IMG/VR virus record: IMGVR_UViG_3300025582_000026
Location: 1-26,013 of that record
Strand: one strand, 5' to 3'
DNA length: 26,013 nt
Source: a virus
Shown here: one piece after another, positions 15,314-17,433 of the stretch
Numbering within the stretch: position 1 is the stretch's first letter
Layout: every line of letters begins with the position of its first letter
Notes under the pieces: generated by a model
The model's input: only the letters and a program-made list of their open reading frames with translations
What the model was told of the DNA's origin: nothing
Databases searched by the model: none
Program-made: the position numbers and the translations under genes

Positions 15314-15412
15314 TTACGCCTCACTTATATATTTTACTATAGTTTGGAGTGCCGTTATCTGTGCTGCAATGGCCTTTACTTTGGTATATTTACGCAAAGA
15401 AAAAGCACTCAT
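15314..15412 (-). CDS. Possible small helical protein (32 aa) coupled to HNH gene
   Basis: ATG at 15412 overlaps the TGA stop of the HNH second half as ATGA, a typical coupling arrangement. The 32 residues form one basic amphipathic helix (LRKYTKVKAIAAQITALQ). No separate binding site is visible, so expression would need reinitiation. The overlap also implies that the second HNH reading frame is translated. Confidence 0.4.
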   Translation of the reverse strand: MSAFSLRKYTKVKAIAAQITALQTIVKYISEA

Positions 15413-16073
15413 ACGAATGCTAGTTGTTGTACATTGTTTTTATATTTCAAATAGCCAAGCACTTTCTTTTCTCGTTGCTTGCTATAGAAAGGTTGTTTTG
15501 GATACCATTCAAAGAAGTTATTCGCATGTTTCGATGTGTTGCATTGCTTACATGCGCAAATTATATTTGAAATAGTATACTCACCACCAAGTGATAAAGG
15601 ATAAAAATGTTCCTGTGCTAAAGGTTTTTTTCTCCGCAGTATGCACACGAATTTCCAAAGAATAGCTTTATGTCATTCCATTGTGTTTCCGTTAAGGTAT
15701 GTGGCAATTCCCTCAGCATTGCTCTGCGGTTATGGCTGCTTATGTTTGTCTTATCTTTGTTATTCATAAAATACACTCTGTGATTCTCGGCAACTTTTTG
15801 TATGTTCTGTTTTCTCCATAATTTATAATGTTCGCTTATGGATTTTTTATTATTATCTCGGTATATTTTCTTTTGTGCATGTATAGTTTCTTTGTTTTCC
15901 TTTAGATATTCTCTCCTGCGAGCGTTACCCGATTCACTGTTTCTCTTTCTCGTAGCGTTAACTTGTGCCCTGAAGCATATTAGGCATGCTCCCCTAGGCC
16001 CTCGCTTGTACTTGGGGAAATACTCTGCCGTTGCTTGTTTTACTTCTCCGCACTTAATGCAAGCTTTAACCAT
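15409..16073 (-). CDS. HNH endonuclease split by a -1 frameshift
   Basis: The first frame starts at ATG 16073 (AGGAGGTTTTATTT upstream) and stops at 15618. It carries zinc-ribbon cysteines at 5, 8, 30 and 33, a basic middle, and NSCAYCGEKNL just before the stop. A -1 shift at 15624-15630 gives CAYCGEKKPLAQEHFYPLSLGG and then ICACKQCNTSK, a complete HNH (Cys2, His, Asn, CxxC) core, in the frame ending at 15409. The joined protein is about 221 residues. Options: programmed shift, a real mutation, or a homopolymer sequencing error. HNH proteins next to terminase genes often assist DNA cleavage in packaging. Confidence 0.8.
15624..15630 (-). other. A AAA AAC slippery heptamer in the HNH gene
   Basis: In the zero frame the codons are GAA AAA AAC CTT TAG, so A AAA AAC is in the exact phase for tandem -1 slippage, one codon before the stop. 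The next -1 codons, CCT TTA GCA CAG, start the expected HNH continuation. GGAG lies immediately upstream. No strong downstream stem is obvious. Confidence 0.6.
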
Positions 16074-16179: not shown

Positions 16180-16208
16180 ATTATACCATATTTAAGGCAT
16201 TTTGTCTT
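16180..16208 (-). promoter_or_regulatory. Strong promoter for the late/HNH transcript
   Basis: The minus strand reads AAGACA, a 17-bp spacer, then TGG-TATAAT: a perfect extended -10 and a 4-of-6 -35. It overlaps the last codons of the gene at 16192-16536 and points to the HNH, TerS and later genes. Confidence 0.6.
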
Positions 16209-16536
16209 GGTATCTCAGAATACTTTGAATGGCCGAGACCTGCACCTCGGCTGACCTCATGCACGATTTTGCCGTGTCGTATTGCACTCTGGCAAGATCG
16301 CGATAGAAGCGTAAGTTGGCAACTTCATCGTCACCCCTGGCTAAATCATTAATGAGTGTCGCGGGCATCTTCTGATCCTTCAGCCTCATTATGATTTTAG
16401 CTAATGCCTTTTTATATTTGCGCTCTGACTCTGCTTTATCTTGCGCCAACTCTTTTAGATATTTTGCATCTGCTTTGAGTTGTTGTCCCGCGTTCCATAA
16501 TGCACGATTTAAGTCAGTAAGTTCTATTGCACTCAC
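16192..16536 (-). CDS. Conserved phage coiled-coil protein (114 aa)
   Basis: The first start codon in frame is GTG at 16536, with AAAGAGG unusually close; no better start lies downstream within 25 residues. The protein is almost entirely helical and charged (LNRALWNAGQQLKADAKYLK, ERKYKKALAKIIMRLKDQ), with a PATLINDLARGDDEVANLRF segment, then QYDTAKSCMRSAEVQV. Similar helical proteins with an 'A-T-x-I-x-D-L-A-x-G' segment occur near late regulators in Bacillota prophages. No known activity. Starts 14 nt after the tRNA gene. Confidence 0.65.
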   Translation of the reverse strand: MSAIELTDLNRALWNAGQQLKADAKYLKELAQDKAESERKYKKALAKIIMRLKDQKMPATLINDLARGDDEVANLRFYRDLARVQYDTAKSCMRSAEVQVSAIQSILRYQDKMP

Positions 16537-16549
16537 CCTCTTTATTAAT

Positions 16550-16624
16550 TGGATCCAACTGTATGACTCGAACGCACATCTGATTCGTTACAAATGAACC
16601 GTTTTACCATTAAGCTAAGTTGGC
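16550..16624 (-). tRNA. tRNA-Thr(UGU) with encoded CCA and several mismatched pairs
   Basis: On the minus strand a full cloverleaf can be drawn: acceptor GCCAACT with AGTTGGA, D-arm GCTT-AATGGTA-AAAC, anticodon arm GTTCA-TTTGTAA-CGAAT with anticodon TGT, a 5-nt variable loop, T-arm GTGCG-TTCGAGT-CATAC, then T and CCA. Total 75 nt. Four pairs are not Watson-Crick or wobble: G1-A72, C11-A24, A31-C39 and C52-A62. It is a threonine tRNA in type, but may be poorly functional or decayed. It begins 7 nt after a terminator hairpin. Confidence 0.75.
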
Positions 16625-16626
16625 AG

Positions 16627-16658
16627 AAGAAAAAGCGCATCCATTAAGACGCGCTTTT
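16627..16658 (-). terminator. Intrinsic terminator in front of the tRNA gene
   Basis: AAAAGCGC (16631-16638) and GCGCTTTT (16651-16658) form a perfect 8-bp stem with a 12-nt loop. The minus-strand transcript ends GCGCTTTTTCTTC. It would end transcription coming from the 16.86 kb promoter, just before the tRNA. Confidence 0.7.
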
Positions 16659-16752
16659 GTTATATTATGTGCGCTGTTGATACTCTCCTATCAATGCACG
16701 TCCACATAGCAACATAAGTTAGCATTTAGTAAATTTGGTGTGTGGGTAGCTA

Positions 16753-16786
16753 ATCACCCTGCACGGCTCTCAGGTATCACCCTGCA
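16753..16786 (-). repeat. 11-bp direct repeats inside the candidate RNA
   Basis: TGCAGGGTGAT occurs at 16753-16763 and 16776-16786, 23 bp apart. Each copy forms the 5' arm of a short hairpin on the minus strand. Confidence 0.65.
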
Positions 16787-16862
16787 TTTCTCGTTTCGAG
16801 TGGTTCATTACAACTCCTGGGGAAGATAGAGGAACGGATTTCTCCGCACCTCTACTCTATAT

Positions 16863-16871
16863 AATATACCA
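16863..16871 (-). promoter_or_regulatory. Extended -10 promoter behind the late activator gene
   Basis: The minus strand reads TGGTATATT, an extended -10 with one mismatch. The sequence 17 nt upstream is not a good -35 (ATGTTA). It begins 22 nt after the stop of the ArpU/RinA-like gene. Confidence 0.4.
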
Positions 16872-16893
16872 GTTTTAACCTGTTTAACATGTC

Positions 16894-17433
16894 CTAATAC
16901 TGTCCTATCTCCCTTATGCTCCGTTTATCTCTCTTATCGTTCTCAGCTTTCAATACATCTTCTATGCCAAATAGATTAATAGCAATGTGTCTCAGACCCT
17001 TATTGTGTAGTTTGTAACAATACCTCTCGTCATAGCCTATCAACTCTGCAATGTGTGTCCAAGGTTCTCTATTGCTGTTTATATATCTTCCTTCCAGTAT
17101 TACTCTCTCAGGCTGTGGCAATCCTTCCATAGCCTTTTCTATTCTCTCGGCTATATGCTTTGCTTTTGTGTAATCCGTTCTATCCTGTTGGTGCTGTTTG
17201 TCTCCTGCCAGCTTTGCTCCTAGTTCCATCTTGGGCACGGAGCTATGCCCTATATGCTCTCCATATTGTGGTGTCATTGATGTTGTGTATCTATCCTCTA
17301 TATCTTCTTTTAGGTTCTTGACATACTGTTCTTGGCTTCTGAATCCCTCTAGATAAAATTTAGTTAAGCGCAGTGCGTCTTGTTTGGCATCCTTAGCAAT
17401 ATTTCTGCTTATTCTTTCCGCTATCTCTTCCAT
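16894..17433 (-). CDS. ArpU/RinA-like late transcription activator
   Basis: 179 residues, ATG at 17433, GAGAGGGTAACGC upstream, overlapping the preceding small gene by 13 nt. The first 60 residues are helical and charged. Residues 107-152 form a sigma-70 region 4-like helix-turn-helix: LPQPERVILEGRYI, then REPWTHIAELIGYDERYCYKLHNKGLRHI (in pieces). This pattern and its place at the early/late boundary match RinA and ArpU family regulators, which turn on packaging and morphogenesis operons. Its targets are probably the promoters at 16.18 kb or 13.95 kb, which I infer only from order. Confidence 0.8.
   Translation of the reverse strand: MEEIAERISRNIAKDAKQDALRLTKFYLEGFRSQEQYVKNLKEDIEDRYTTSMTPQYGEHIGHSSVPKMELGAKLAGDKQHQQDRTDYTKAKHIAERIEKAMEGLPQPERVILEGRYINSNREPWTHIAELIGYDERYCYKLHNKGLRHIAINLFGIEDVLKAENDKRDKRSIREIGQY

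Follow-up and report, generated by a model that had tools for sequence, protein, structure and literature searches.

A probable late-operon leader with a built-in terminator beside a RinA/Alt/Ltr/ArpU-like activator gene in a phage genome

The window, which is the whole stretch of 26,013 nucleotides of viral DNA analysed here, carries on its minus strand a non-coding segment of 247 nt. A gene for a late transcription activator lies on one side of this segment, and a tRNA-Thr gene followed by the first late gene lies on the other. The features of the locus are as follows.

16894-17433, minus strand: late transcription activator gene, RinA/Alt/Ltr/ArpU-like, 179 aa (phrog_36, E 2e-17; phrog_248, E 6e-12)
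16887-16908, minus strand: two adjacent imperfect 11-bp repeats, ATAGGACAGTA TTAGGACATGT, candidate sites for activator binding that end about 29 bp before the -10
16871-16863, minus strand: extended -10 of the late promoter, TGGTATATT, assigned from sequence and aligned with the TGNTATAAT-type boxes of relatives
16855-16858, minus strand: predicted transcription start region, from the spacing to the -10
16826-16855, minus strand: 5' leader hairpin, GUAGAGGUGCGGA-GAAA-UCCGUUCCUCUAU, from the fold
16808-16770, minus strand: 12-codon ORF, MNHSKREMQGDT, with the Shine-Dalgarno sequence AGGAG at 16818-16814
16776-16786, minus strand: direct repeat, copy 1, TGCAGGGTGAT, exact 11-bp match
16753-16763, minus strand: direct repeat, copy 2, TGCAGGGTGAT, exact 11-bp match
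16744-16759, minus strand: hairpin GGGUG-AUUAGC-UACCC, predicted in the window and L029 copies
16666-16708, minus strand: hairpin UAUGUGGACGUGCAUUGAUA-GGAGAG-UAUCAACAGCGCACAUA, predicted in the window and L029 copies
16658-16625, minus strand: intrinsic terminator at the leader end, AAAAGCGCGTC-TTAATG-GATGCGCTTTTTCTTCT, from pairing probability and a hairpin plus U-tract search
16627-16792, minus strand: RNA core common to the window and L029, with the terminator at its end
16550-16624, minus strand: tRNA-Thr (UGU) with encoded CCA, downstream of the terminator
16192-16536, minus strand: first late gene, phrog_1389 family (phrog_1389, E 3e-21)

A sequence-only reading of this locus had described a candidate small RNA bounded by an extended -10 and an intrinsic terminator, and both bounds are present on the minus strand. 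The three small hairpins that it noted are all predicted, its 11-bp direct repeat is exact in both copies, the 12-codon ORF with AGGAG lies inside the segment, and the neighbours are those it named, the activator (phrog_36/phrog_248) and tRNA-Thr. Its statement that it knows no RNA family to match the segment agrees with Rfam, where tRNA was the sole match at the gathering threshold and nothing of weight for the leader RNA appeared at a relaxed threshold. The anatomy of the locus, its position and its recurrence in relatives are read directly from the sequence. Among the related phages used for comparison, L002 was found via the first late gene and L029 via an exact-pattern scan for the repeat pair; L045, L046 and L048 were added by an activator search.

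The calculated minimum free energy of the 247-nt segment is -75.9 kcal/mol, compared with -58.4 +/- 4.4 kcal/mol for shuffled sequences (z -4.0), and none of 200 shuffles is as stable. Folded within the whole leader, most of the terminator stem pairs with a probability near 1; the 47-nt region that contains the terminator has a folding energy of -16.7 kcal/mol. The terminator was found by a search for a hairpin with a U-tract and was missed by a simple consensus scan. Both the fold and the terminator exceed chance expectation. One explanation for such a leader is a protein-independent, riboswitch-like attenuator, in which the RNA toggles between terminator and antiterminator folds; a 7-nt alternative pairing, GACGUGC with GCGCGUC, does exist. 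However, this pairing has a probability of 0 in the ensemble, against a value near 1 for the terminator stem, and the leaders of L048, BM13 and 98201 are short, with little room for a second fold. An antiterminator fold in the leader was rejected on the ensemble pairing probabilities, and an attenuator of this type is highly improbable.

The 5' leader hairpin has counterparts in L002 and in L048, where a U-tract follows the hairpin. Comparison of the window with L048 gives one compensatory pair in this hairpin, G-C to A-U, identified by eye in too few sequences for a test. A likeness of the direct repeat to a T-box or k-turn was too weak and was dropped. The 12-codon ORF was rejected as a coding gene, since it is not conserved and is absent from L029. 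Its Shine-Dalgarno sequence and ATG follow the order seen in L048 and L002 for the Shine-Dalgarno sequence and start codon of the first late gene. Given this order and the absence from L029, the ORF is probably what remains of the Shine-Dalgarno sequence and start codon of a first late gene that formerly stood here.

The activator gene lies directly upstream of the late promoter, with the gene end at 16894 and the -10 at 16868, and homologues occupy the same place in L029, L045, L046, L048 and L002. Activator searches of 344 and 341 genomes returned no close relative. Relatives of the activator match DUF722, DUF1492 or Sigma70_r4, and the similarity to sigma-70 region 4 is weak. Neither the window regulator (phrog_36/phrog_248) nor its relatives match the Q family; the regulator may act in a similar way to the lambda system but does not belong to it. 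Activators of this superfamily adjoin the late promoter on its upstream side and bind direct repeats (PMC13123087). For example, repeat binding and promoter activation by Ltr of phi13 have been shown by experiment, the phi13 late genes depend on promoter P23, and promoter activity and particle formation are lost when the TATA box or the regulator is mutated (PMC13123087). Late control by RinA/Alt/Ltr/ArpU proteins is presented in the same work as activation of initiation (PMC13123087).

Upstream of the -10, at a distance of about 29 bp, an 11-bp and 22-bp periodicity is common to five related late promoters. The mean self-match of the five promoters is 0.43 at lag 11, a value reached by none of 5000 shuffles at this lag; the p value is about 2e-4 with all lags allowed, for -10 boxes chosen by eye beforehand. 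An extended -10 of the TGNTATAAT type, or a near match, directly follows the activator gene in L045, L046, L029, L048 and L002, and the -10 box of L029 is without the TG.

The RNA of L029 is 98.2% identical to that of the window over 171 nt, from 16792 to the terminator end; the core itself is counted as 165 nt (16792-16627). The flanks are divergent, with protein identities of 58% for the activator and 34% for the first late gene, and the rest of L029 is 82-99% identical to the window in patches. A nearby shared coding segment of 94% identity would lead one to expect more than the three differences seen in the 171 nt (P about 0.01). One of the three falls in the terminator stem and leaves a G-U pair there, in a comparison of two sequences only. 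A third copy of the core was not found by pattern scans and blastn in viral contigs, GTDB genomes, phages and plasmids. The repeat-pair pattern occurs at 31 loci in viral contigs, with L029 as the sole homologue; many of the others are collagen-like or other repetitive coding sequences. The terminase is 65-76% identical to prophage terminases in Paenibacillus, Bacillus and Heyndrickxia. The leader RNA is unclassified, and its sequence is so far represented in two phages, the window and L029.

The near identity of the core amid divergent flanks, with fewer differences than coding DNA nearby, is what would be seen if the segment were a trans-acting phage small RNA (a moron RNA), that is, a portable core and terminator driven by the late promoter, which pairs with or binds a phage or host partner. 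The stable fold and the variable content of the slot between the promoter and the first late gene also speak for this explanation. However, with a single other copy of the core, recent exchange explains the identity equally well; the identity fits purifying selection or recent exchange, and neither is favoured. No promoter is seen within the conserved core block. Complementarity between the core and the rest of the window is limited to matches of 11-12 nt at two places, and antisense pairing to phage transcripts was rejected on matches of this length. Furthermore, where other phages have terminated leaders of 30-60 nt, the recurring part is the terminator and not an RNA of this length. A trans-acting small RNA is thus clearly unlikely.

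The slot between the late promoter and the first late gene differs in content among the related phages. Nothing extra is present in L002 and L048, an opposite-strand gene is found in L046, a tRNA-Ile follows a terminator in L045, L029 has the RNA core, and the window has the RNA core together with tRNA-Thr. Leader tRNA genes occur in TP901-1, PLgT-1, 53801, phiEf11, phiFL1A, L045 and the window. In these different Gram-positive phages, the tRNAs lie between the late activator and the first late gene, and they cover Lys, Ala, Met, Asn, Ile and Thr. The tRNA-Thr of the window has a low score (38 bits), with a G1:A72 mismatch and one T-stem mismatch identified by eye, and may be degenerate. A 3' fragment of an L029-type phrog_1389 first late gene is kept in the window near 15378-15310 (minus strand). 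The survival of this fragment suggests that the start of an L029-type gene was replaced by a block that brought in tRNA-Thr, the HNH genes and the phrog_1389 gene now in place; the end of the RNA core coincides with the joint of this block.

A codon other than AUG may serve as the start of the first late gene. In the alignment, the start is ATA in the window (16527-16525, minus strand), L029 (2958) and L046 (1883), ATT in L045 (3844), where an in-frame TGA lies three codons upstream, and ATG in L002 (3001). The aligned starts lie 8-10 nt after a GAGG Shine-Dalgarno sequence, which the GTG start given in the ORF list would overlap. A promoter-like sequence, AAGACA-17-TATAAT with TG before the -10, is located where the first late gene ends, ahead of the HNH gene (16208-16180, minus strand). 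The endonuclease VII/HNH gene itself (15409-16073, minus strand) seems to be split into two overlapping frames, one of 151 aa and one of 79 aa, which correspond to consecutive portions of phrog_1035. Between late genes of the window, a terminator-like hairpin in the sense direction lies at 8070-8051 (minus strand).

The order of promoter and then terminator recurs well beyond the window, in many temperate phages of Gram-positive hosts. A layout of repeats, extended -10, variable leader, usually a terminator, and first late gene is found in 13 of 15 lineages with activators of the RinA/Alt/Ltr/ArpU type. A terminator between the activator gene and the first late gene is present in 10 of the 12 scored lineages, compared with 1.1 expected (P about 2e-11), for lineages picked by the analyst, with related terminators collapsed by judgement and the TP901-1 and phi11 leaders inspected before the enrichment test. 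Scoring covered the region from the activator stop to the next gene and required a U-tract and a hairpin energy of -9 kcal/mol or lower, and the expectation was derived from dinucleotide shuffles. Among control intergenic gaps in the same phages, a terminator is present in 1 of 27. The zrk29-2 sequence is without annotation, and its first late gene was not placed.

A terminator stands between the late promoter and the first late gene in the window, L029, L045 and L046, and in L048 the first hairpin bears a U-tract. The leaders of EJ-1, phi13 and phiFL1A likewise contain a terminator; in phi13, a terminator-like hairpin separates P23 from the gene that follows. In phiEf11, which belongs to the phiFL1A lineage, the hairpin is present and its tail fails the rule, and in L002 and bIL286 there is no terminator between the activator gene and the first late gene. 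A promoter-like sequence lies downstream of the leader terminator in phiFL1A. In the lineages examined, the terminator is downstream of the promoter, and the gap from it to the gene is often just 19-50 nt. In L029, the gap to the first late gene measures only about 25 nt, too short to hold a second promoter. Because the promoter lies before the terminator, late transcripts must meet the terminator. A search of the open-licence literature gave no description of terminators after these late promoters.

A terminator that consistently lies between the early and late operons could be a passive insulator, which stops early read-through from the activator gene and is leaky to late transcription, with the leader RNA itself idle. 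Additional terminator-like sites in some late operons suggest that leaky terminators are tolerated. However, a site upstream of the late promoter would suit an insulator better than the downstream one that the terminator occupies in the lineages examined; moreover, the conservation of the core with L029 is above that of its coding neighbours. We regard the insulator as possible but doubtful.

In bacteriophage lambda, the late promoter pR' lies right after the late regulator gene and is followed by a non-coding leader of about 200 nt and the terminator tR' before the late genes. The 6S RNA is made by default, and the late genes are reached by read-through. The window shares this arrangement of a late promoter after the regulator gene, a non-coding leader and a terminator before the late genes; unlike in lambda, the regulator is of the RinA/Alt/ArpU type and not Q, and the likeness is one of layout. 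The pR' region of Stx phages is also covered in the literature (PMC6266700). Since a terminator lies between the late promoter and the late genes, we read the segment as a late-operon leader similar to pR'-tR'. The segment is probably such a leader with a built-in terminator, rather than a stand-alone small RNA gene. The small RNA proposed in the sequence-only reading holds to the extent that the segment looks like a separate non-coding RNA that has a promoter and a terminator of its own; however, the promoter is that of the phage late genes, and the RNA heads the late operon.

On the leader reading, the activator encoded upstream would bind the 11-bp repeats beside an extended -10 promoter that has no -35 box, and transcription would start near 16857. 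The first ~230 nt would be non-coding and end at the terminator at 16658-16625, where stopped transcripts would constitute a small RNA, like lambda 6S from pR'-tR'. Transcripts that read through would carry tRNA-Thr and the late genes, and some read-through into coding genes, which the sequence-only reading had named as refuting its small RNA, is expected. The terminator would thereby guard the entry to the late operon, blocking early or basal transcription, and would be overcome by strong late transcription or by a modified polymerase. The 165-nt core would be a lineage-specific elaboration of the leader.

Closer parallels to this late-operon leader are found in phages with related activators. 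TP901-1, with the order alt, promoter, tRNA, terminator and terS, also has repeats, an extended -10 and a leader tRNA, and its terminator is 23 nt before terS; however, there is no sequence similarity, and the tRNAs precede the terminator in TP901-1 and follow it in the window. The rinA-terS region of phi11/80alpha likewise has 11-bp repeats, 28 bp before the -10, and then a terminator 48 nt before terS, but its leader is only about 85 nt and lacks the RNA core and tRNA. The Ltr/P23 system of phi13 shares an activator-dependent late promoter, experimentally shown in phi13, and a terminator-like hairpin before the next gene, whereas its repeats are 18 bp and its leader is short, compared with the 11-bp repeats of the window (PMC13123087).

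Late operons contain further sense-strand terminator-like sites inside (phi11, TP901-1 and the window), so the terminator of the leader may be only one of a number of partial terminators. These internal sites fit both protein-aided antitermination and simple leakiness. A parallel to lambda Q, in which RinA/Alt/Ltr/ArpU proteins, alone or with a partner, also make RNA polymerase resistant to termination, is a tentative and rather unlikely extension. On this view, late genes of Gram-positive temperate phages would be controlled through processive antitermination at a terminator close to the promoter, and the elaborated leader RNA of the window may take part.

In summary, late transcripts must pass a terminator in almost all of the lineages covered, among them well-studied phages of Staphylococcus and Lactococcus. 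A terminator past the late promoter raises the question of whether RinA/Alt/Ltr/ArpU activators also control termination. A terminated leader would also offer a simple origin for small RNAs that are seen in this position in prophages.
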